Part shown: positions 22,848 to 34,517 of the stretch, piece after piece
How the letters are laid out: each line of letters opens with the position of its first letter
Numbering within the stretch: position 1 is the first letter of the stretch
From: Candidatus Heimdallarchaeota archaeon
Lineage (GTDB): Archaea > Asgardarchaeota > Heimdallarchaeia > Heimdallarchaeales > Heimdallarchaeaceae
DNA: 34,517 nt
Direction of reading: 5' to 3'
Assembly: GCA_021399345.1 (NCBI GenBank)
Contig: JAAFKI010000003.1
Span: 1-34,517, forward strand
Made by a program: the position numbers and the translations under genes
The notes under the pieces: model-generated
The model's database searches: none
Told to the model about the DNA's origin: nothing
Seen by the model: only the letters and a program-made list of their open reading frames with translations

Positions 22848-22872
22848 ATTGCCAAACAGCTGTTGGGAGAAT

Positions 22873-24672
22873 ATGCCTGGAACAGAATATACCAAAGAAG
22901 TTCTCGAATTAATGGATGATATTGGTAGTATTGTCGATAATGTAAATTGGAGTACCTATTCGGAGACTAGGGTAAAGATTCTTGTTTCACAGCGAGTCGA
23001 TGAATTAAAACATATTCTTGGTGAGATTCCTGACGATATTCTCATGAATTCTGATGAAGCTTCATTATTCTTTGAGAAAATTTTAGAAAAAATTACTTTA
23101 ATCTTAACCAATCTTCCACAAGACAAGTTACCTATACAATGGTACGAATTGGAATTATTCAGATTAAGGTATGCCTCCATGTATGCTTTACAATACGGTC
23201 ATGCAGGGGAATTACAAATTGCAGGTTCAGCACATGCTCTAGCAAATATGTTAATTGGGATAACAACATTAGATGTTAAGAATCTAGTTGTTGACTGGGA
23301 TCATCATGAATTTCACAGAAGAAGAAAACTTGTTTTAAATTACCTGAGTTCAGCATATCTTTTCTTCTTTAGTTTATGTGACTCCCTAACTCAGATCTAC
23401 AAACATGATCTAGAACATTGGATGACTGAGGGGTTAAAAGCAAGCACTCAATATATCCACTACATGGATGTCTTCTGGAACATTCGAAAAAATATCGAAC
23501 TTGCAAAGAAAATCCCAAAAGAACGGAATTATTCTATGTACTATGCAACCTTCGCAGCAATTGATTACATCATTACTTTTCTACTTGAACTTCAACGGTA
23601 TTTATTCAATAAGGACATAAAGATAGAAACAAATAGAGAGATTCTGGACTTTTCTGATCCTGAAAAATTATTAGATTCATTGGAAAATCTTCTTAATAAA
23701 AGCGATATGTATATCGCTGATTTAAAAGCCCATATCGATAAGGGATTCTTCAACATAAATGAAAATCCTTTAACAGATAATGATGTAAGTGAAACAATCT
23801 ACGAACTCGAAGTTACTAAAGTTTTCATAAAGGGCTTAAGATCTTCGTACAAAATAATAATTAAAGAAAACACAGCAGAGATTCAGAAAATTGTAAAAGA
23901 TGTTATGCCTGAATTGTGGAAATATTTAGATAAATATAAACATCTAATGGAAGATGAGGATTTCATTAAAAGTCAAATGGCTGATGGAATAGCAGGAATG
24001 CTTGAAGAGATTATCTACTTTGGAGGGCTTGTTGCGGATTATACAGATGATTTTTCAAATATAAATAGAATGGAACGAGAATATGCTTACTTCTTCTCTA
24101 AAGAAGGCATGAAGAGGTATCCTAAACTTAATGGATTATATGTTACTTTCTTGACAACACTGGCTTCTAGAAAAGAAGAATTTTCAAAACTTGAAGAGTA
24201 TGCATACAAGCTTCTAAGCATCTCTAAAGGCTCCCTCTATGAACCACGGAATTCTTTTGCTTTTTCCTTAACAGGTAATCTAATTTTAGTAATTAGGAAA
24301 GAAATAACTAACGAAGAATTTGCTAGGAGAATGAAAGAAATTCATGAAAGTTATTATTTATCACTTACACCAAAACTAAATTCTGAGATAGAAATATATC
24401 TTACAAATATCTATTTAGCTCTTAACAATGAAGAAGCTTCATATGATATGAGACGATTATTATTACCAGAATACTTTGATCCTTATTCTATTTTCATTCC
24501 AGAATTTGGAAAATTTGCTGAAATGAATTCTGTTGGTGACATAATCTACCTTCCTTTCAATTTGCAAAGTGATTATGTTGCAGATGCAGATATTGAGGTT
24601 ATTGAACCAGCCATTCAAAAAACAGACGAAGCTGAAGCAACCACAGATTTAACTGAAACGTCAACAGATTAG
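22873..24672 (+). CDS. Large all-helical protein of unknown function
   Basis: About 599 residues with no signal peptide or membrane helix. The sequence is almost entirely amphipathic helix (for example EYTKEVLELMDDIGSIVDNV, SQRVDELKHILGEI and FFEKILEKITLILTNL), with HH near 164 (VVDWDHHEFHRRRK) and an acidic, Thr-rich tail (about 575-599). It resembles helical-repeat scaffolds such as TPR-like solenoids, but no repeat consensus could be fixed. The longest frame begins with TTG at 22849; the ATG at 22873 has GGGAG just before it and is preferred. It has its own promoter and inverted repeat and runs convergently with the truncated propeller gene. I recognise no family. Confidence 0.72.
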   Translation: MPGTEYTKEVLELMDDIGSIVDNVNWSTYSETRVKILVSQRVDELKHILGEIPDDILMNSDEASLFFEKILEKITLILTNLPQDKLPIQWYELELFRLRYASMYALQYGHAGELQIAGSAHALANMLIGITTLDVKNLVVDWDHHEFHRRRKLVLNYLSSAYLFFFSLCDSLTQIYKHDLEHWMTEGLKASTQYIHYMDVFWNIRKNIELAKKIPKERNYSMYYATFAAIDYIITFLLELQRYLFNKDIKIETNREILDFSDPEKLLDSLENLLNKSDMYIADLKAHIDKGFFNINENPLTDNDVSETIYELEVTKVFIKGLRSSYKIIIKENTAEIQKIVKDVMPELWKYLDKYKHLMEDEDFIKSQMADGIAGMLEEIIYFGGLVADYTDDFSNINRMEREYAYFFSKEGMKRYPKLNGLYVTFLTTLASRKEEFSKLEEYAYKLLSISKGSLYEPRNSFAFSLTGNLILVIRKEITNEEFARRMKEIHESYYLSLTPKLNSEIEIYLTNIYLALNNEEASYDMRRLLLPEYFDPYSIFIPEFGKFAEMNSVGDIIYLPFNLQSDYVADADIEVIEPAIQKTDEAEATTDLTETSTD

Positions 24673-24696
24673 TCAATGAATCTGACTTTACAGCTG

Positions 24697-25188
24697 CTAT
24701 TTTCTTTTTCTTAATAAGAGATAAGTAATAACTGTTAATATTATTTGAAAACCTCCTACAATAGCTGCTAGAATAATTATCTCACCTATATCCATTGTTT
24801 GAAAGATTCCAGTTTGTGTTGTTTCAGTTATAGAACCAGAGAGTTTTCTATAAAACACATCATATTCAGTACAAGATCCTAGGAAGTCCATAGCATCTTG
24901 CCAAATAATGTGTACTGTGCCAGTTGTATCTGTTCTCACAACTGAGTAGTATGAATTATCATCATTTTCTGTTGAGACAACTAATTCTTGGGACCAGGTT
25001 CTAGAAGTACCATCCAGTATTCTATACATCACATCATAATCGCTGCCTGAACCTCCGTGAGGAGTTGAATCGTGCCAAACAACGTGAACATCACAAAATT
25101 GATCTACACTAACTGCAGGTTGAGAGCTTGATAGAACACGTCTAAAAATCTTCCTTACAGGGAACCGTTGTTCTAATTTTTTTGTCAA
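24697..25188 (-). pseudogene. 5'-truncated copy of a beta-propeller membrane protein gene
   Basis: The open frame of 163 residues contains two blade-like repeats (VDQFCDVHVVWHDSTPHGG and TGTVHIIWQDAMDFLGS), each followed by a YDV(M/F)YR segment and one by VVSTE. It ends in a membrane helix (IGEIIILAAIVGGFQIIL) and KRK. The blade pattern and the IGEI-LAAI-GG anchor match the 588-residue protein at 30619-32385, which has seven repeats, a signal peptide and an FnIII domain. Here the signal peptide, most blades and the FnIII domain are missing, and the first 18 residues (MTKKLEQRFPVRKIFRR) do not fit either protein. The TTG start overlaps the stop of the TPR gene. It is most likely a non-functional remnant, though expression as a coupled gene is possible. 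Confidence 0.65.
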
Positions 25189-27074
25189 GTAAATATTTCA
25201 TCGGCCCAATTTTCAAGTCGTTTGGATTTTTTATCATCTAATGATCTTCCAGTCTTAATCATTTGGGGGAAATCTAACCAGATTGGTGAAGAAATCAGTC
25301 TGCTTCTAAAAGATTCCATTTTCTTACTAGCAGAATAGGAAGATCCTTTGAAGGCATAGCATATAATCACGTTATCAACTTGACTGAAAATGAGCAGATA
25401 ATTCTGATGTTCTATCCTCCTGAGGGATCCTTCAGTTGAGAACACTTCTTGGATAATATTATTAATTGCAGTTAAAAATCCTGAGAAAATAACTTGATTG
25501 ACTTGATCTTCATCACCAAATTGGTATGAGAAAAAGGGAATACCATTATCATCAAGAATCATCAACATAACAGGAGCGTCATTTTCTATTTCTTCTAAAT
25601 CAAAGGTAGCTCTATTTATCATATTTAGAACCAACTTATCAACTTGTGAAGCCTTAATTCTGTCTGCAAGACTTGCATTTTCTTCTATGATGTTTTTCCA
25701 GCTAGCATATTCTGTTATTATTGCGTCATGATCACTTGAAATCTTTCTTGCTAAATTCTCTAAATTCTGTCCTTCAGCAATGATTTGTGCTTGAGAAAGG
25801 AATCCTGTTGATTTGTCTATATCTGCGTCCACTAATGCAAGTCTCCCTTTTAACCAATATACTTCAGCTAGAAGAGATCTTGAAATTTGTTCTTTGGCTA
25901 TATTGAGTAATTTATTAGATATTTCTTCTAAATCTTCTAGAATTTCAGGGTTGTTAGTAAACCTTAACTCATGAAGCAATATTTCACATAGATTCAACAT
26001 TGCATGGATATTGATTTCTTGATAGACTAAATTCTTGCTTATTATATATTCCAGAATTTCTTGAGCTTTACCTAAACTGGCAAATCTATTTGCTTTTTTA
26101 TGATACACAGCTTCAGATAATTGAGAATAGTAGTATATCATGGTGTCATGTTGATCAATCGATGCGTTTCTAGATATATCAAGATGCTCTTTAGCTTCAA
26201 AGAAATCATCTCTAGTTAATAGAATATTTATCAGATAAAAGAGAGATTCAACAACTGTAAATTTGAAATCAATTTCAAGAGCTCGTTCTAGACTCTTTGT
26301 AAAATACTCAAAGGAATTATCATAATCTCCTTGACTATAATAGACTATTCCAACATTATTGTAAGTAATAGCCATACCATAATTATTACCTATTTTTTGA
26401 TGGAGAATTAGAGCAGTATTGAAGAATTGTAAGGCTTGAGCAAAATCACCTTTTAGCCTGTGAATCTCTCCTAAAGCAACTAATGAATTTGCCATTATGC
26501 TGTGATCATTGAGTTTTTTGCCAATTTCTAAACTCTTGTCAAGAATCTCATGAGATTCATCCAATTTCCCCTGATAGGTAAGTATTTTTCCCTTACGAAA
26601 GAGGCTTCGTGCATAAAGAACTTCATTCTCAACCTCTTCAGAAAGATTTAAGCTTTTGTTGACATGTTCAACTGATCTCTTTAAATCAGTAAAACAATAA
26701 ATACAACTTTTATGAAATTGAATTTGTGTTTCAATTTCCATCATAACAGTTGTTTCTTCGCCGATAATCGCGTTTTTTGCGTAGTTTTCTACTCTTTCAA
26801 TCATTAGAAGACTTTCTTCAAATTTACCTAGCCTCCAGAGAGATTCAATAATTACAAAGTAGAGATCATATTTCTGAGTGAAGGAGATTAGCTTTCCTCC
26901 AAATAGATTTAGTGTGTGCTGAGCGTGGGAAATACTATCATCGAAAAAACCCAAATGGGTAAGTATGAATGATTTTCGAAACATAAGTTCTGCAAAATCG
27001 CTCTCTGAGATATTGGGAGTCTCCTCTAATTGAGTAATTTTCTCCAAAGCTTCCTTATAACTGTAAGAATTCAT
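25185..27074 (-). CDS. TPR-repeat protein with a C-terminal longin/roadblock-like domain
   Basis: Residues 1 to about 460 form tandem helical repeats with clear TPR consensus, for example ANSLVALGEIHRLKGDFAQA and AITYNNVGIVYYSQGDYDN. A linker helix (about 465-500) leads to an alpha/beta domain (about 510-600): VMLMILDDNGIPFFSYQF, VIFSGFLTAINNII and YLLIFSQVDNVIICYAF. This domain shows the D-x-x-G-x-x-x-F and FSGF signature also seen in the small protein at 20339-20791. Proteins of this kind probably join a protein-binding scaffold to a GTPase- or membrane-related sensor; the role here is inferred. The start at 27074 lacks a ribosome-binding site, and a GATATATAATC box at about 27164-27174 is a likely promoter. 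Confidence 0.82.
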   Translation of the reverse strand: MNSYSYKEALEKITQLEETPNISESDFAELMFRKSFILTHLGFFDDSISHAQHTLNLFGGKLISFTQKYDLYFVIIESLWRLGKFEESLLMIERVENYAKNAIIGEETTVMMEIETQIQFHKSCIYCFTDLKRSVEHVNKSLNLSEEVENEVLYARSLFRKGKILTYQGKLDESHEILDKSLEIGKKLNDHSIMANSLVALGEIHRLKGDFAQALQFFNTALILHQKIGNNYGMAITYNNVGIVYYSQGDYDNSFEYFTKSLERALEIDFKFTVVESLFYLINILLTRDDFFEAKEHLDISRNASIDQHDTMIYYYSQLSEAVYHKKANRFASLGKAQEILEYIISKNLVYQEINIHAMLNLCEILLHELRFTNNPEILEDLEEISNKLLNIAKEQISRSLLAEVYWLKGRLALVDADIDKSTGFLSQAQIIAEGQNLENLARKISSDHDAIITEYASWKNIIEENASLADRIKASQVDKLVLNMINRATFDLEEIENDAPVMLMILDDNGIPFFSYQFGDEDQVNQVIFSGFLTAINNIIQEVFSTEGSLRRIEHQNYLLIFSQVDNVIICYAFKGSSYSASKKMESFRSRLISSPIWLDFPQMIKTGRSLDDKKSKRLENWADEIFT

Positions 27075-27181
27075 TAAGGAATCTATCTTTTCGAGCTGAG
27101 TATTGTTTTCTGTAAACTATTCCACTCTCACATTTGCAGGTACATAGAGTAAAAATAGGTAGATTATATATCTTTCAATTA

Positions 27182-27359
27182 AGGCTACAATACCATTCAA
27201 CAGCAGCAACAATAGTATTGAAGGCATCATCAGTAATGACCATGTCAGCAACCTCTTTGGTAACGTTAGTGCCTGTAATGCCCATTGTGCGACACCTATA
27301 TCACTTTTTTTAATCGCAGGTGCATCATTAACGCCATCACCGTTTATTGAAACAGATAT
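27182..27359 (-). pseudogene. Remnant of a P-type cation-transporting ATPase
   Basis: Read on the minus strand, the sequence gives [19 protein letters not shown], the conserved hinge motif of the P-domain. After a two-base frame break at about 27286-27287 it continues as [20 protein letters not shown] and [10 protein letters not shown], exactly the order found in P2-type (Ca, Na/K-like) ATPases. Only about 55 codons remain out of roughly 900, and a stop lies just before the first residue. Both the phosphorylation motif DKTG and the membrane helices are absent, so it is a dead fragment. It sits between the TPR gene promoter and a short tandem repeat. Confidence 0.85.
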
Positions 27360-27400
27360 CTATACATATCGATTGTTTCAAATTGTTATAGTTGTTCAAT

Positions 27401-27450
27401 GATATGTATGGTTATTCTACGATATGTATGGTTATTCTACGATATGTATA
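27401..27450. repeat. 20-bp direct tandem repeat, 2.5 copies
   Basis: The unit GATATGTATGGTTATTCTAC occurs at 27401-27420 and again at 27421-27440 without change, followed by a half copy (GATATGTATA) to 27450. It lies about 40 bases beyond the ATPase remnant and 100 bases before the aminotransferase-like gene. It may be a slippage product, a binding array or a scar of a past insertion. The rest of the gap (27075-27550) holds only promoter-like AT-rich sequence and the remnant. Confidence 0.85.
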
Positions 27451-27550
27451 AGCGACAGAAAGATATTTTAAACTAAAGGAGAACTAACTAAAACATTAAG
27501 TTAGGAATAACCATTATTCTTTTAAATCTTAAATTTCGACCAGATTCAGC

Positions 27551-28771
27551 ATGGTCAAGAGAGTTATCAAAACCGCACCAGATTATTTGGCCCTAAACTT
27601 TTTTGAGTTTATAAGACATTTTGCTAATCTTCTTACATCTAAAAAATACAAACTTTGGATAGAATCCGATAAACACACTACAATTTTAGGTTATTCATGT
27701 AGAGCATTATTTGAAGTTTGTATGCAGTATTTTTATAAAGAAGATTTGGTAGTTGCAACAACTCCAATCCAGCACACATCATTTAGGAACATCATGGAAA
27801 AGTATGTTAAACCAGAAAATATTCACATTATTAAATTAAACAAAAACTACAATGGAATTAAAGAAATCCCCATATTAGATAACTGCGATTTAGTAGTAAT
27901 AACACACTATTTTGGACAGGATATGGATATATCTGTGCTATCAGAATTTAAGAAGAAACATAACTGTATTATTATAGAAGATAGAGTACAGGGAGGAACA
28001 CTTGATCTACTTTCAAGTCATGAAATTGTTGATATCCCAATATACTCAATGAGTATGGATAAAAGACCGATTGCTCTTGGGGGAGGATTTATGTATATTA
28101 ATAATCAATATGAGGGATTAATAGAAGGTACAAAAAAGATAATTGAAGCATTACCCATAGAAAAGACAGGTAAAAGATTTAAACAAATGTTGAAGAAGTT
28201 ACCCACTTTTCTATTTTATAATAGTCGTATCTTCTTAGCTTCATTTATTGATCTACTTCGAGTAGCAACTTTCTTCAACAGGAATATCAGTTTGCTGAGA
28301 TTTGCTAAAGCTTACAGAGCAAAAAACCCTGGATTTGATCGAGAAACCTTTTTGAGTAAACCTTCTCATGGTTTGCTAAAATCAATGTATCAGAATTTAG
28401 ACAACTATAAAAAAATGGAAAATTTGTTTGCTAAAAAATATGCTTATTTCATCGAATGTTTAGATCCTGAGATTATACCTTATTTCTTCCCTTGGTATAA
28501 AGGGAATAGCAGCTTATCATCCTACAATACTATACAAATTGAAGAACATCTGGTGGATCAGTTTCTAGAGTTCTTAACTGAATATGACATATCCTGTATA
28601 GCTAACCCCACTTACAAGGTGTTTAACCATTCTTATGAGAACAAAGAAGTAGATGTCAAATTTAATAATGGTATAGTATACATTCCATCAACTCCTAACA
28701 TGAAGAAAAGAGAAATGTGTTATCTAGCTGATAGGTTAAAAGAATTCTATGAAATAACCAAAAAAATGTAA
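27551..28771 (+). CDS. PLP-dependent aminotransferase-fold protein, DegT/DnrJ/EryC1-like
   Basis: A 406-residue cytoplasmic protein with the order of elements of the fold-type I aminotransferases. QHTSFRNIMEKY and THYFGQDMD precede the cofactor-binding strand IIIEDRVQGG (Asp144 facing the pyridine nitrogen, Gln147 in the place of the DegT EDAAQ motif). The candidate Schiff-base lysine is Lys171 in YSMSMDKRPIALGGG, where DegT proteins have a Ser-rich segment ending in Lys before a glycine run. The family makes amino sugars and related compounds or acts as sugar dehydratases and regulators. Divergence from classical members is strong. A TTTTAAAT box about 28 bases upstream of the ATG and no ribosome-binding site suggest a leaderless transcript. 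Its last 90 bases occur again at 32561-32650. Confidence 0.72.
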   Translation: MVKRVIKTAPDYLALNFFEFIRHFANLLTSKKYKLWIESDKHTTILGYSCRALFEVCMQYFYKEDLVVATTPIQHTSFRNIMEKYVKPENIHIIKLNKNYNGIKEIPILDNCDLVVITHYFGQDMDISVLSEFKKKHNCIIIEDRVQGGTLDLLSSHEIVDIPIYSMSMDKRPIALGGGFMYINNQYEGLIEGTKKIIEALPIEKTGKRFKQMLKKLPTFLFYNSRIFLASFIDLLRVATFFNRNISLLRFAKAYRAKNPGFDRETFLSKPSHGLLKSMYQNLDNYKKMENLFAKKYAYFIECLDPEIIPYFFPWYKGNSSLSSYNTIQIEEHLVDQFLEFLTEYDISCIANPTYKVFNHSYENKEVDVKFNNGIVYIPSTPNMKKREMCYLADRLKEFYEITKKM

Positions 28772-28833
28772 TTTCTCTAGTGCATAAGACTAATAAAAAT
28801 AAATTAAAAAAAGAGATCCTCTAGTAAAAGAAA

Positions 28834-28847
28834 TATTTTTCTATTTT
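28834..28847 (+). terminator. Possible T-rich terminator
   Basis: Two T-runs (TATTTTT and TATTTT) lie about 65-75 bases past the stop of the aminotransferase-like gene, in the gap before the convergent SDR gene. T-runs of this kind end many archaeal transcripts. Confidence 0.3.
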
Positions 28848-28865
28848 AAAATAATCACTTATTCC

Positions 28866-29834
28866 TCAAGTTTGTTTAAACCAATCTAATGTCTCTTTGA
28901 TGGCTATTTTATGAACTGTATGTTCTGTTGTATTGAAAGCTGAAACGTATTTTGTTCCATCAATTATAAATGGATGTTTCCATTCATATGTTAATTCTTT
29001 AAGTTCCTTCACGATAGGTATGAATGGTGCTAGAATCTTAATTGTGCTTTCACTTAATACTTTCATATTTGGCTCCTGATTCAACTCTTGAAAAATCATA
29101 GTGATGAATTCTCGACCTGTGACTGATTCAGCTCCTTCGACATGAAATATTTGCCCATAAGAATTAGGATTTTCTGATGCCATTACCATTCCTTTTGCAG
29201 CATCAACTATATACATCAATGAATGTTTCTTATCTAAATCTACTAACCATGTTGCTGCTTTACCTTTAACTGGGTTTTCCAGAAGTGGTTTGGTAAATCC
29301 ATTAACAACATTAGGTCCATAAAAATCTCCAAAGCGTACGATGACTGCGTTTATATCACCTTTAGAATGAGCATCTAGTATTTGCTTTGCTAAACGTACT
29401 CGAAGCTTTCCCTTTTTACTCTCGGCATTTAGCGGATGCTCTTCAGATATCTTATCCCCTTGCATTTCACCATACATGTACAAATTATCTGCAAAGACTA
29501 GATTAGCTCCAACTTCCTTAACAGCTGCTAGAATGTTATTATTGATAATAGGGAATTCCTTTAACCATTTTGTATAAAGAACGTTAACGCAATGATAAAC
29601 TACATCTGCACCTTGAACTGCTGTTAAAGTTTGTTCCTGATCCATTAAATCAGCTTGTCTGATTTCAACATCAATATTTTGAAACATTTTCCTTGCTTTC
29701 TGAAGGTTTCTTGTTACCGCAATTACTGATCTTTCTCTCTTCACAAGTTCAAAAACTACTGCTGAGCCAAGCCCTCCTGTAGCTCCTAGTACAACAGCTT
29801 TTCCATCAATTTTCTTTTGGCTTTTATTATTCAT
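28866..29834 (-). CDS. Atypical SDR (NmrA/epimerase-like) NAD(P)-binding protein
   Basis: The 322-residue protein opens with the Rossmann motif VVLGATGGLG (14-23) and an NADP-type segment VTRNLQKAR (40-48). Strands ADVVYHCVNV and ANLVFADNLYMYG follow the extended-SDR plan. Where the catalytic Y-x-x-x-K is expected, the sequence has Val146 before Lys150 (LRVRLAK), so the usual tyrosine appears to be missing; an atypical reductase or a binding/sensor function is possible. The start has AAAGGTG six bases upstream of the ATG. It is divergent from the TetR gene and one of two matching palindromes lies over its promoter, so it is the probable target of that repressor. Confidence 0.85.
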   Translation of the reverse strand: MNNKSQKKIDGKAVVLGATGGLGSAVVFELVKRERSVIAVTRNLQKARKMFQNIDVEIRQADLMDQEQTLTAVQGADVVYHCVNVLYTKWLKEFPIINNNILAAVKEVGANLVFADNLYMYGEMQGDKISEEHPLNAESKKGKLRVRLAKQILDAHSKGDINAVIVRFGDFYGPNVVNGFTKPLLENPVKGKAATWLVDLDKKHSLMYIVDAAKGMVMASENPNSYGQIFHVEGAESVTGREFITMIFQELNQEPNMKVLSESTIKILAPFIPIVKELKELTYEWKHPFIIDGTKYVSAFNTTEHTVHKIAIKETLDWFKQT

Positions 29835-29849
29835 CTCTTACACCTTTAC

Positions 29850-29862
29850 CGAACGATGTTCG
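29850..29862. promoter_or_regulatory. TetR operator candidate 1 (SDR side)
   Basis: The palindrome CGAAC-GAT-GTTCG lies 16 bases from the SDR start, over the transcription start expected from the TATA box at 29882-29893. It is matched by a second palindrome at 29901-29913 with identical arms. Confidence 0.75.
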
Positions 29863-29881
29863 ATTATCTTTTTACCTCGAC

Positions 29882-29893
29882 ATATTTAAATAT
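29882..29893. promoter_or_regulatory. Palindromic TATA box between the SDR and TetR genes
   Basis: ATATTTAAATAT is a perfect palindrome and could bind TBP in either direction. For the SDR gene it is in the correct place (about 25 bases from the first operator). The TetR gene may use it or the TTTATATTA box at 29925-29933, which lies about 25 bases before its ATG and would make a leaderless transcript. Confidence 0.5.
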
Positions 29894-29900
29894 TCCTAAA

Positions 29901-29913
29901 CGAACAAAGTTCG
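29901..29913. promoter_or_regulatory. TetR operator candidate 2 (TetR side)
   Basis: The palindrome CGAAC-AAA-GTTCG has the same arms as the first site, with centres 51 bases apart (about five DNA turns). Bound dimers could lie on the same face and loop over the TATA box between them. It sits just upstream of the TetR TATA candidate. Confidence 0.75.
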
Positions 29914-29953
29914 GTTAAGTAAGGTTTATATTAGAGTCTAATAACAATCAATT

Positions 29954-30595
29954 ATGAGCAAGAATAAGAAGACTAGAGCGAGATCTACAGAAGCAAAGGA
30001 AAAGCAATTTCAGCGCATAATTAAGGCAGGTCGGGAACTTTTTCTGAAACATGGTCCTGAAGGTGTGAGTATGCGTAAGTTAGCAAATAAGCTGAATATG
30101 GGTCAAGCAAGTCTCTATACTTATATTTCTAGTAAAAGGGAGTTATGGTTCGCGATTCTAAGAAATGATTTTGGTAAATTTGAACTCGGAATGGCAAAAA
30201 TCATGCAAGACCATAAAGGAAATTACAAAGAACTTCTAGAGAAGATTGCTCTGTTTTATCTCGAGTTTGCAAGAGAAGATGAGAAACGTTACAAAATGAT
30301 GTTTCAAACTCAAGCACCTCAAGCAGAAAGAACAGGATTACTCGAACAACAATATGACTCTAAGTCTATCTATTATTTGAACGAAATCGTTCAGAAAGCT
30401 GTAGATGCGGGAGAAATAAAAGAGAAAGATGTTGGCAAATTGTCTTTCTTCATTTGGGGAATTGTTCATGGAACGGTGAGTGTTGTTCAAACTGAATTTT
30501 TTGGAGATCAAGAACAAATCCCAGAATACGGCAATATTGACGAATATCATCAGTTTGCATTAGAATACATAAAAAAATTGCTTAATGAAATGTAA
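29954..30595 (+). CDS. TetR-family transcriptional repressor
   Basis: A 213-residue protein of normal TetR length. The basic N-terminus leads into the helix-turn-helix (IIKAGRELFLKHGPEGVSMR, then KLANKLNMGQASLYTYISSK, about residues 22-62) with the canonical LYTYISSKREL recognition helix. The C-terminal ligand domain ends in the SFFIWGIVHGTVSVVQ helix typical of many TetR regulators. It is divergent from the SDR gene, with two equal palindromes between, so it most likely represses both the SDR gene and itself until a small ligand binds. The region coding for the last third (from 30364) has a second, diverged copy at the right edge of the window. Confidence 0.93.
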   Translation: MSKNKKTRARSTEAKEKQFQRIIKAGRELFLKHGPEGVSMRKLANKLNMGQASLYTYISSKRELWFAILRNDFGKFELGMAKIMQDHKGNYKELLEKIALFYLEFAREDEKRYKMMFQTQAPQAERTGLLEQQYDSKSIYYLNEIVQKAVDAGEIKEKDVGKLSFFIWGIVHGTVSVVQTEFFGDQEQIPEYGNIDEYHQFALEYIKKLLNEM

Positions 30596-30618
30596 TAGAA
30601 AAAGAAAGAGAGGAGAAG

Positions 30619-32385
30619 TTATTTTTTACCAGTCTTTGGACTTCTTATTTTGGGTCCAGTTTTTACAAAAACAACAACAATTGTAGTTATTAGAAGCTGA
30701 ACTCCACCTATGATAGCAGCTAAAACCAGAATTTCGCCAATTCTTAACGATTTGAAGAAACCTGGTGATATTTCATCTTCAAGAACCTGAATAGATTCAA
30801 TATTTGATAAGCTACTTTGACCATAATTGTTGCTGGCAAGTACTGTATAGAAATAAGTTCCAGCAGCAGTAATGTCATCTATATACGAAATAGAAGAAAC
30901 AGTAGCTAAGGGAGTTAGACCAGAAATAGTGGAAATATAGGAAATATCACGATAGATCTGATAGCTCACAGCACCACTTTCTTCAGTCCAACTAAGGCTA
31001 ATATTCCCAAGTTGAGCTGGATTGGGAACAATATTGTTAAGAGTTGGTGTTTCAGGACTTCCTACAAATTTTCTATACATAATATCTGGACCAGCACCAG
31101 CTCCTAGTATATCCGTCCAATCGCTCCATGTCACATGTAAATGACCTAGAGTATCAATTGCTAAAGCAGGGGTATTAGAATCAGCTCCATGGTCATAAGT
31201 TAGAACTCCAAGAGATGACCATGAATCGGTAGTTAGATCCTTATATTTGAAGAAGATGTCTGCATCAACTCCCGCTCCTGAATACTCAGTCCGGTCTTCC
31301 CAAACTAGATAGAGATGAGAATCATCAGATACCATTCTCAATTCAGTCGATGGTGAATCACTTTCAGTACTGACAACTTTAGAAATATGCCAAGTATCAA
31401 ATTGGGGATTATAATATTTGTAAAATACATCCCAGTCGGTACTAGCATTATCATAATTAGATTTGTCAACCCAAGATATATGAATTCTATCCGAATCATC
31501 AACGGATATATTAGGAATTCCAGAAACATCATCACTTTCTGTACTTATAACTGTATATGGAGACCATGTTGTCAAATCTTCATCCAAAGTCCTGAAAAAA
31601 ACGTCGAGATCGACACCTGAACCTCCGTAGTTGGTTTCATCCGTCCATATAAAATAAATATTACCCGTTGCATCACTATCAATACGTGGAGTATATGCTG
31701 TAAGTGTGCTGTATTCTGAGACTATAAAGGTAGAACTCCAAATTCCAGCAGAGGTTCTTCGTTTATAAAGGACATCCCATCCGTCAGTGTCATCACTCCA
31801 AACAATATGTGCTATATCTTTTGCATCCACGTGTATTACAGGACGATCTACTCCCAGAGTGCTATCAGAGGAGACTAGTTCTGTTGTGCTCCAGATTCCT
31901 GAAGAAGATCGCTGTTTGTAGAATACATCTTCATCAGCATCAGATTCTAGTATATTTGTATAATCACTCCATGTAACATGGATGTTATTTTCTGAATCGA
32001 TAGCTATTGTAGCTGAGTCTGACCCACTTGTACTCTCGGTAGAAACTACTTCTAGAGGTAACCAAATTTTTGTTTGAGCATCGTATTGGACATAAAAAAC
32101 ATCTCTATCGTTCCCAGAACCTCCAAGATCAGGTGTTACATCGTCCCAGATGAGATGGATGTTATTTTCACTGTCGCAAGCAATAGCAGGATGATACGCA
32201 CTTACTGTGCTGCTTTCTGAAATTAGTTCTACAGGAGTCCACCACCAAGAAGAAAAATCATTTAGATCAATGTCATCATTTAAAATAATACTATTAGATG
32301 TGGAATTAACATTCATTGAAGTGGGTAAGAATCCTACTATGAGAACTAGAAAATTAATAAGAAATAGAATTTTTATTACTTTCAT
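30619..32385 (-). CDS. Membrane-anchored seven-repeat beta-propeller protein with FnIII domain
   Basis: The chain has 588 residues. A signal peptide (IKILFLINFLVLIVGFLP) precedes seven repeats of about 52-60 residues, each with the pattern D-x-x-(N)-(I)H-(L/I)-x-W-x-D, a glycine/aspartate-rich loop, DVFYK and W-x-x-x-x-V(V/I)STES. Seven blades suggest a BNR/sialidase-like propeller. An FnIII domain follows (about 450-545: LSWTEESGAVSYQIYR, GTYFYTVLASNNYG), then a membrane helix (ILVLAAIIGGVQLLITTIV) and a basic tail. The domains should face outwards and bind glycans or proteins; catalytic residues of sialidases were not seen. It starts at an ATG at 32385, has its own upstream region and is convergent with the TetR gene. 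A truncated relative lies at 24697-25188. Confidence 0.85.
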   Translation of the reverse strand: MKVIKILFLINFLVLIVGFLPTSMNVNSTSNSIILNDDIDLNDFSSWWWTPVELISESSTVSAYHPAIACDSENNIHLIWDDVTPDLGGSGNDRDVFYVQYDAQTKIWLPLEVVSTESTSGSDSATIAIDSENNIHVTWSDYTNILESDADEDVFYKQRSSSGIWSTTELVSSDSTLGVDRPVIHVDAKDIAHIVWSDDTDGWDVLYKRRTSAGIWSSTFIVSEYSTLTAYTPRIDSDATGNIYFIWTDETNYGGSGVDLDVFFRTLDEDLTTWSPYTVISTESDDVSGIPNISVDDSDRIHISWVDKSNYDNASTDWDVFYKYYNPQFDTWHISKVVSTESDSPSTELRMVSDDSHLYLVWEDRTEYSGAGVDADIFFKYKDLTTDSWSSLGVLTYDHGADSNTPALAIDTLGHLHVTWSDWTDILGAGAGPDIMYRKFVGSPETPTLNNIVPNPAQLGNISLSWTEESGAVSYQIYRDISYISTISGLTPLATVSSISYIDDITAAGTYFYTVLASNNYGQSSLSNIESIQVLEDEISPGFFKSLRIGEILVLAAIIGGVQLLITTIVVVFVKTGPKIRSPKTGKK

Positions 32386-32724
32386 GATATTACAACCAAT
32401 TCCTACATTACGAAGAATATGCTAAAAACTTTCCTCACAAATATGCTAAAGTTACTTAACGGAGAGATGTCAGCTAGCTTCTTGCACTCTAAAATGCTCT
32501 TTGAAACCTATATCAAATCAATATATAGTTCCAATTGTAGATTTTAGGCATACATTTACACATTCCATCAACTCCTAACATGAAGAAAAGAGAAATGTGT
32601 TATCTAGCTGACAAGTTGAAAGAATTCTATGAAATGACCAAAAAAATGTACTATTTATAACTCATTTCATCCAATTAATTTTTGCAGTTTGATCAAATCC
32701 CTTATGAAATTATCTGTTGACCAT
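32386..32724. other. Gene-free gap with promoter region and aminotransferase-like remnant
   Basis: The right part holds the remnant described separately (32561-32650). The left part is the upstream region of the propeller gene, with a direct repeat AATATGCTAAA (about 32416-32456) in two copies about 30 bases apart. On the plus strand no open frame continues the remnant leftwards beyond about 32546. Confidence 0.5.
32561..32650 (+). pseudogene. Duplicated 3' end of the aminotransferase-like gene
   Basis: These 90 bases match 28681-28770 with four differences (about 96% identity). The frame codes for IPSTPNMKKREMCYLADKLK and then EFYEMTKKM, after which it reads three more codons to a TAA. Two differences are silent and two change Arg to Lys and Ile to Met, so the source was probably a working paralogue. 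Nothing upstream matches the rest of the gene. It is a 3' fragment left by duplication or recombination. Confidence 0.9.
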
Positions 32725-33186
32725 CTATCGTTGAAATAAAGAAGCTAACTTATTTAATAATCTAAAAAACTCCATCTCTTCGTCATGGGAAAAATTTTTG
32801 AAAACCTTCTGCATTTCGAGAAAAATTCTTTCAGTCATTACTTCTAGCTTTTTCTTACCAATGTCACTAATCTTGATTAGGAATTTTCTCCTGTCTTCTT
32901 TATTTATTACCCTAATCACATAATTCCTATCTTCAAGTCGATTAATAATACCTGTTGTGGTGCTTGGTGCAATTGAAAAATGCTCAGATATCATTTTCAT
33001 GCCACTTCTTTCATGATCTAATACAAAGTTTAGAACTCTAAATTCAGGAAATGATAAATCCTCATCACCCAAAAAGATTCTATTTCTCGTAAATGTCTCA
33101 AAAAAATCATCTATCTTATACAAAAACCTTTGAATATAATCCGAGTCTTTTTGGTTGTTCCCTTCTTCAAATGAGTTCATCTTCAT
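32725..33186 (-). CDS. MarR-family transcriptional regulator
   Basis: About 153 residues. The winged helix follows the MarR pattern: LSFPEFRVLNFVLDHERSGM, KMISEHFSIAPSTTTGIINR (recognition helix), LEDRNYVIRV and a wing with NKEDRRKFLIKIS, where DRR is the family hallmark. The flanking helices form the dimer interface. The longest frame starts with TTG at 33195; ATG at 33186 or 33180 is more likely, and no strong ribosome-binding site distinguishes them. It is divergent from the TauE/SafE permease gene with a long palindrome in the shared promoter, so it probably controls that transporter and itself. Confidence 0.9.
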   Translation of the reverse strand: MKMNSFEEGNNQKDSDYIQRFLYKIDDFFETFTRNRIFLGDEDLSFPEFRVLNFVLDHERSGMKMISEHFSIAPSTTTGIINRLEDRNYVIRVINKEDRRKFLIKISDIGKKKLEVMTERIFLEMQKVFKNFSHDEEMEFFRLLNKLASLFQR

Positions 33187-33266
33187 CAGCTTCAACTATG
33201 GTAATACAACACAATTACTTTTTTTAAGTCATTCGATTTATTTCGATAGAAATATAATACGTGAAC

Positions 33267-33293
33267 AAAATATTTCGGCAACCGTAATATTTT
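33267..33293. promoter_or_regulatory. 27-bp near-perfect palindrome, candidate MarR operator
   Basis: The arms AAAATATTTCGG and CCGTAATATTTT are 12 bases each with one mismatch, around a CAA centre. The site lies in the divergent MarR/TauE promoter region, just behind the MarR TATA-like box (minus strand, about 33250-33260) and just before or over the TauE box (about 33290-33298), where one bound dimer could control both genes. Confidence 0.7.
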
Positions 33294-33357
33294 AATAATT
33301 CATAAAAACTTATCTCTCTGGATTAGAAACAGACTCCAAAATAAGAGGCTAGAGAAA

Positions 33358-34299
33358 TTGGACTTTGTATCATTTATGATAATGGCAACAATTGGGTTAG
33401 GAACAGGAATTATAACAAGTTTCATTGGCGCAAGTGGAGTAGTTGTTGTTGTACCTCTTGTTTTATTGTTATTTGAGGTAGATGTGCATACTGCTTTAGG
33501 TATTAGTTTAATGGTTGATTTCATCGCTTCAATTGTTGTATCTTTCACTTACTATAGAAAAGGAAATGTTGAGTTTAAATCAGGTCTCTGGTTAGCGGTA
33601 GGAGCAGTAGCAGGTTCGCAATTAGGAGCTGTGTTAGTACAATCAATTTCGGGATCATTTTTAGGACCAGCATTTGGAATAGCAGCAATTATAATTGGTT
33701 TTATACTTGTTGCAAAGAATATTTTTTCACCAAAAGAAACTCAGGTGTTACCTGATAGAAAAAACAAAGGTCACCACTGGGCTGATGAAAATTATGATAA
33801 ATCTTTGCTTAAGTTATTACCAGAAAAAAATTCAATGGGGAGCTCAGAAGTAATTCATGTGACAGATAAAGTCGAGGGAGATCAGAATCTTTCAGTAAAT
33901 AAGAGATTTAAGAAAATGAAATCTCTTCAGTTCAAAAGAGGATGGGTTAAAATTATTTTTACAGTAACATTGGGTTTTGTATTAGGTGTTGGGAGTGGAA
34001 TCTTTGGTGCAGGTGGGGGGGCAATTATATTAGTGGTGTTAATTGTTGTTTTAGCTTTACCTCTCCACAAAGCAATAGGAACATCAACATTGATAATGGC
34101 TTTAACAGCTTTCAGTAGTTCAGTGGGTTTTGCTATCCAAGGAAGTATTAATTATGTAATGGGAGGGGTTATAGGTATCGGTGCAGTTATAGGTGGATAT
34201 TTCGGATCACTATTCGCAAACCATGTTAGCGAAAGAATCTTAATAATTTTTATTGGAATAATTGGTATGGTCTTAGGAATACTTATGTTATTGATTTAG
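33358..34299 (+). CDS. TauE/SafE-family membrane permease (anion exporter)
   Basis: A polytopic protein of 313 residues with two homologous halves, as in the TauE/SafE family. Half 1 carries GLGTGIITSFIGASGVVVVVP and half 2 GVGSGIFGAGGGAIILVVL, the repeated glycine-rich helix hairpins. Each is followed by HTALGISL or HKAIGTSTLI, the paired family motif. A cytoplasmic loop of about 65 charged residues (about 120-190) separates the halves. The family transports sulphite, sulphoacetate or other organic anions; the substrate is not evident. The start used is TTG at 33358; the ATG at 33376 is an alternative that would shorten the first helix. It is divergent from the MarR gene. Confidence 0.9.
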   Translation: MDFVSFMIMATIGLGTGIITSFIGASGVVVVVPLVLLLFEVDVHTALGISLMVDFIASIVVSFTYYRKGNVEFKSGLWLAVGAVAGSQLGAVLVQSISGSFLGPAFGIAAIIIGFILVAKNIFSPKETQVLPDRKNKGHHWADENYDKSLLKLLPEKNSMGSSEVIHVTDKVEGDQNLSVNKRFKKMKSLQFKRGWVKIIFTVTLGFVLGVGSGIFGAGGGAIILVVLIVVLALPLHKAIGTSTLIMALTAFSSSVGFAIQGSINYVMGGVIGIGAVIGGYFGSLFANHVSERILIIFIGIIGMVLGILMLLI

Positions 34300-34348
34300 A
34301 AGAAAAAAATCTGCTGTTAACTTCTATGTCGAGTCGGTGATACTACTT

Positions 34349-34517
34349 GTCCACCTATTATTTAAACGAAATCGTCCTAAAAGCAGTAGATGCAGGAGAT
34401 ACAAAAGAGAAAGATGCCGGTAAATTATCTTTCTTCATTTGGGGTATTGTTCATGGAACTGTGAGTGTTGTTCAAACAGAATTTGTTAGAAATCAAGAAA
34501 AAATCCCCAAATATAGC
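34349..34517 (+). pseudogene. Duplicated 3' part of the TetR gene, cut by the window edge
   Basis: The sequence matches 30364-30532 of the TetR gene with about 85% identity by manual comparison and no gaps. It codes for YYLNEIVLKAVDAGDTKEKD, then AGKLSFFIWGIVHGTVSVVQ and TEFVRNQEKIPKYS. Many differences are silent, so it comes from a once-functional paralogue. A TGA lies in frame at about 34338-34340, and no helix-turn-helix sequence precedes it, so the gene is truncated at its 5' end. It may continue beyond the window. Confidence 0.85.

Follow-up and report, generated by a model that had tools for sequence, protein, structure and literature searches.

The window analyzed here is the entire 34,517-nt contig JAAFKI010000003.1 (G000:C152) of a 3.27-Mb Candidatus Heimdallarchaeota archaeon assembly, and it carries two short direct repeats of gene ends: the 3′ end of an aminotransferase-like gene (AT) and the 3′ part of a TetR-family regulator gene (TetR) recur downstream as AT′ and TetR′. 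These repeats are leftovers of several separate gains and losses and represent neither one neat duplication nor a novel type of element. The best explanation, held with moderate confidence, is that the stretch from AT (left edge) to a Dus-ArsR gene pair (right edge) is a gene-turnover hotspot of this archaeal genus, in which an incoming block recombined at the AT 3′ end and deletion left truncated gene ends (stumps, denoted by primes) behind.

Gene-end remnants in the window

The AT 3′ end at 28677–28770 is repeated at 32557–32650 with 95% identity over 94 nt (E = 1.8e-36; 91% over 103 nt in a longer alignment), and the TetR segment 30364–30528 is repeated at 34349–34513 with 86% identity over 165 nt (E = 1.9e-50). 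On the basis of these E-values, chance is excluded for both. A sequence-only reading of this DNA had reported the two repeats, and their coordinates, orientation, and identities are borne out; searches of the 3.27-Mb assembly returned no third copy of either unit. The gap between the AT and TetR units is 1.59 kb in the first occurrence and 1.70 kb in the second. Because the window is the whole contig, TetR′ breaks off where the contig does, at 34517, and may extend farther. The second occurrence holds two more gene-end remnants that had been overlooked, Fer′ and X′. The features of the region are:

27551–28771, plus strand: AT, intact aminotransferase-like gene, 406 aa; proposed left edge of the hotspot, with a conserved position after a TPR gene in relatives
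28677–28771, plus strand: AT 3′ end, parent of AT′; zone where the AT of some species diverges abruptly
28866–29834, minus strand: SDR-family, epimerase-like gene (SDR), divergent partner of TetR
29954–30595, plus strand: intact TetR-family regulator, parent-type gene of TetR′
30619–32385, minus strand: BNR/beta-propeller-like putative secreted, membrane-anchored protein (BNR), convergent with TetR
32473–32565, minus strand: Fer′, 3′ end of a 4Fe-4S ferredoxin-type gene (Fer) that is intact beside BNR in G018
32557–32650, plus strand: AT′, truncated AT 3′ end, stop codon lost; meets Fer′ at six shared nt (acattc)
32669–32704, minus strand: X′, 3′ end of a 535-aa 4Fe-4S gene (X), 89% over 36 nt
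32725–33195, minus strand: MarR-family regulator (MarR)
33358–34299, plus strand: TauE/SafE-type transporter (TauE)
34349–34517, plus strand: TetR′, truncated TetR 3′ part, open frame, cut at the contig end

The second “copy” consists of four truncated gene 3′ ends in succession (Fer′, AT′, X′, and TetR′) with MarR-TauE between X′ and TetR′; the first three form the mosaic that occupies the ~300 nt separating BNR from MarR. TetR′ covers TetR codons 137–192 or beyond. Among the intact genes, AT gives only a sub-threshold DegT match against Pfam, the SDR-TetR pair also occurs in G001, G004, G007, G011, G015, and G018, and BNR has a second copy (88% aa identity) on another contig of the same assembly, C166.

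The earlier view that the fragments are remnants around a replaced middle holds, and the genes of this middle are foreign. The MarR-TauE DNA has no match in 37 relatives except short, chance-level pieces. A TauE of this type is found in 0 of 20 genus mates at E ≤ 1e-20 and, at the same threshold, in 12 of 228 phylum genomes (own included), with ~30–50% identity and a patchy distribution. MarR-TauE is probably an acquired pair. No donor was identified: the best relatives are only ~30–50% identical, and MarR was seen beside TauE in none of them.

The AT-to-Dus interval in related genomes

The flanks of the interval appear to be kept, while the content between AT and Dus ranges from one to ~10 genes, with a different set in each genome examined. 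AT and Dus share a contig in G001, G003, G005, G009, and G015 and lie on separate contigs in the other genomes. A single gene separates them in G009 (AT-266aa-Dus) and G001 (AT-276aa-Dus), two genes in G005 (AT-SDR2-BNR-Dus), four genes plus stumps in G015 (AT-SDR-TetR-BNR-[SDR′,TetR′]-BNR-[Fer′]-Dus-ArsR), and about ten genes in G003. The order BNR-Dus-ArsR is present in G008 and on C166. The SDR-TetR-BNR module lies inside the interval in G015 and the window and after Dus in G001.

G011 has the order AT, X, SDR, TetR, followed by the contig end. Since X directly follows AT there, the AT′-X′ order of the window preserves a neighborhood known from a relative. The X′ and TetR′ stumps of G008 abut with a spacer of zero and share aaatccc, an arrangement that matches the window in order but lacks MarR-TauE. 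Further X stumps are present in G020 (61 codons, 93%) and G014. The order match of the two copies is inherited from the ancestral gene order, and the spacing match is chance: the G008 spacer of zero means that spacing is not conserved, and the window's spacer is the unrelated MarR-TauE. Of the repeated order and spacing emphasized by the sequence-only reading, the order is inherited and the spacing coincidental.

TetR stumps adjoin BNR genes in G015, G008, G009 (two), and G021 as well as on C166. No close intact TetR was found in G008 or G009, both of which are incomplete genomes, and for this reason their stumps look like relics of lost genes. Independent occurrence of the two fragments elsewhere, which had been named as evidence against a joint duplication, is seen for TetR′, which stands beside BNR in G008, G009, and G021 with no AT-type repeat seen.

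C166 (L026) was considered as a direct continuation of the window and not accepted as established. Its first 218 nt consist of untrimmed Nextera/Tn5 adapter (positions 1–22) and then ~196 nt of the degraded 3′ end of an unrelated 571-aa membrane-protein gene, intact in G004, G007, and G010; moreover, the C166 TetR stump begins later than that of the window.

Ages, recombination, and the proposed history

AT′ is nearest to its own genome's AT (5.4% difference over 74 nt) and shares bases private to it. TetR′, on the other hand, is 13–17% from all intact TetRs and about equally far from each, while the intact TetRs of the own genome, G001, G011, G015, and G018 differ by 6–9%. Given this unequal divergence (5% vs 14%), AT′ and TetR′ most likely derive from separate events, and the earlier suggestion of more than one step is upheld. 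The 23 differences between TetR′ and the own TetR are distributed 5/4/14 over codon positions 1/2/3; the preponderance of third positions (14 of 23) suggests that TetR′ probably spent some of its past as a functional paralogue. It seems to be what is left of an older SDR-TetR-BNR module, whose stumps adjoin BNR genes in four relatives as well.

The closer relatives are mostly ~90% identical or more across the AT body. Over the last 160 alignment columns, G001 falls to 82% and then 33%, and G011 falls to 89% before reaching 39%. The start of AT′ lies in this part of the gene as well, which fits the entry of new blocks at the AT 3′ end. Relaxed constraint on the C-terminal tail could account for part of the divergence, above all in G011. 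An internal AT segment (columns 241–360), in which G015 and G011 are unlike the others, is a second sign of recombination. In the AT genes of G001 (L038:3451-4680) and G011 (L036), the C-terminal ends are strongly diverged against ~95% identity over most of the remaining gene, a pattern suggestive of end replacement.

The sequence-only reading had offered tandem duplication with a replaced middle or, alternatively, a repeated recombination site at gene ends. From the abrupt AT divergence between species, recombination at gene ends is probable. A fixed site is not supported, and no constant attachment core marks the repeat edges: TetR stumps start, by locus, at codons ~137, 148, 152, 157–160, 163, 187, and ~202.

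The history that we propose would have begun with an incoming block (AT-3′end-SDR-TetR-BNR-Fer) that recombined by homology within the resident AT 3′ end, its far side joining, likewise inside AT, at ~6 nt of microhomology. The resident AT 3′ end and its old neighbor X would have been pushed downstream, where they now appear as AT′ and X′. Independently of this, a second SDR-TetR-BNR module of greater age would have decayed to TetR′ beside its BNR gene, which is expected beyond the contig end, and MarR-TauE would have been inserted between X′ and TetR′. Deletion of the promoters of two divergent genes may leave silent, tolerated 3′ stumps back to back. Such pairs are seen as SDR′/TetR′ (G015), X′/TetR′ (G008), 571′/TetR″ (C166), and Fer′/AT′ (window), with junction microhomology at Fer′/AT′ (acattc) and X′/TetR′ (aaatccc).

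At the hotspot loci, which were partly picked for such matches and are not independent, 3′ stumps outnumber 5′ stumps by 18 to 2 (p = 0.0004). Elsewhere, a 1.6-Mb sample of genus DNA, taken mostly from arbitrary stretches but with some own-genome contigs chosen from earlier search hits, gives a ratio of 13 to 7 (p = 0.26), and it is not established that all stumps across a genome are 3′ ends. Probes of 30 aa from N- and C-termini recover intact orthologues about equally often, so the 3′ excess does not stem from one protein end being easier to detect than the other. For about half of the 20 remnants in the 1.6-Mb sample, an intact parent lies on the same stretch within ~5 kb, always in the same orientation; the window's situation is therefore not unusual for the genus.

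Several points weigh against the proposed history. (i) AT-X ahead of a complete second module, the arrangement expected before the insertion, is present in no genome, so we infer the order of events. (ii) At 94 nt and 165 nt, respectively, AT′ and TetR′ cannot yield a supported tree, and the bootstrap nearest neighbor of TetR′ is spread over G001, G007, the own genome, and G018. (iii) For AT′, duplication within the genome and transfer from a close relative explain the data equally well. (iv) The genomes are fragmented and metagenome-assembled, and a missing gene may be unassembled.

The strongest alternative is an in-genome tandem segmental duplication of AT(3′)-X-SDR-TetR-BNR, after which the middle of the second copy was lost and MarR-TauE inserted. 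Like such a duplication, the window carries the same genes as direct repeats and in unchanged order, AT-X-...-TetR as in G011, and the scenario is further favored by the second SDR′-TetR′ stump pair before a second BNR gene in G015, by the additional TetR″-BNR unit on C166, and by the frequency of genus remnants near same-orientation parents. Its one-step form is excluded, since the remnants differ in age and the first copy lacks X: AT′ is followed by the end of a gene that neighbors AT in G011 and not in the window. The idea that order and spacing were inherited together in a tandem duplication is not supported, for these two reasons and for the zero spacer in G008. In addition, Fer′ ahead of AT′ means that the junction is not a clean module boundary, and X′-TetR′ occurs in G008 without AT′, though AT′ could have been lost there. 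A multistep tandem duplication is rather unlikely.

An assembly chimera is much less plausible still. The contig ends within a repeat, and the adapter on the sister contig C166 betrays an imperfect assembly, but only ~6 nt are common to both sides of the junction at 32557, the repeats are not identical, and the AT′-X′ order in G011 and the X′-TetR′ order in G008 come from independent assemblies. Least probable of all is an integrase-type element with gene 3′ ends as its targets, which it would duplicate to form attachment sites: inserted genes are indeed flanked by direct repeats of gene 3′ ends, but no integrase or transposase domain is present among the open reading frames of 22849–34299, TetR stumps begin at no fewer than six different codons, the repeats are 86–95% identical rather than exact, and the stumps stem from several unrelated genes.

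Surface-protein genes, known systems, and significance

Several of the remnant-parent pairs in the 1.6-Mb sample enclose a putative signal-peptide, membrane-anchored surface-protein gene, judged by eye from sequence. At L190:14571-19460, L212:4226-8254, and L176:1339-7591, an intact gene is followed by a direct-orientation copy of its own 3′ end; at L190 and L212 the two are separated by a large gene for a putative surface protein. At L197:2872-7831 (G007:C4), partial copies of Dus (5′ end) and of a 419-aa oxidoreductase-like gene (3′ part) flank inserts consisting of two putative surface-protein genes. A general tendency of secreted, membrane-anchored surface-protein genes to spread in the genus by recombination, with the 3′ ends of neighboring genes as entry points, each leaving a displaced direct 3′ stump, is a speculative and rather improbable proposition.

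One further truncated gene lies upstream in the window:

24697–25188, minus strand: 5′-truncated BNR-type gene of 163 aa, flanked by the U607 and TPR genes

Its same-place counterpart in G016 is 482 aa long (L045:1162-2610). Upstream of AT, at 27387–27446, a 20-nt unit is repeated three times in tandem. The genome also encodes gelsolin-domain proteins, as 0 of 14 control genomes do; this points to an Asgard archaeon.

Horizontal-transfer hotspots without mobile elements, with recombination reported at the flanking genes, have been described in bacterial species (Oliveira et al. 2017, PMC5635113). The AT-Dus interval resembles them in its rapid turnover and in the lack of an integrase among the genes of 22849–34299, and may also do so in its conserved flanking genes and in recombination at the end of a flanking gene. 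It differs in belonging to an archaeal genus, so that the hotspot definition is applied loosely, and in its recognizable gene-end stumps. Inactivated prokaryotic genes shrink chiefly by deletion, and in Salmonella pseudogenes that are still expressed have been shown to be selected against (Kuo and Ochman 2010, PMC2916853), which fits the silent 3′ stumps here, except that most of each gene is lost and only an end is left.

Short gene-end remnants can be read as a record of gene gain and loss in an uncultured archaeal genus, and order and spacing that seem conserved can be deceptive. Should the stump pattern prove general, it would provide a simple way to spot turnover hotspots in fragmented archaeal genomes.
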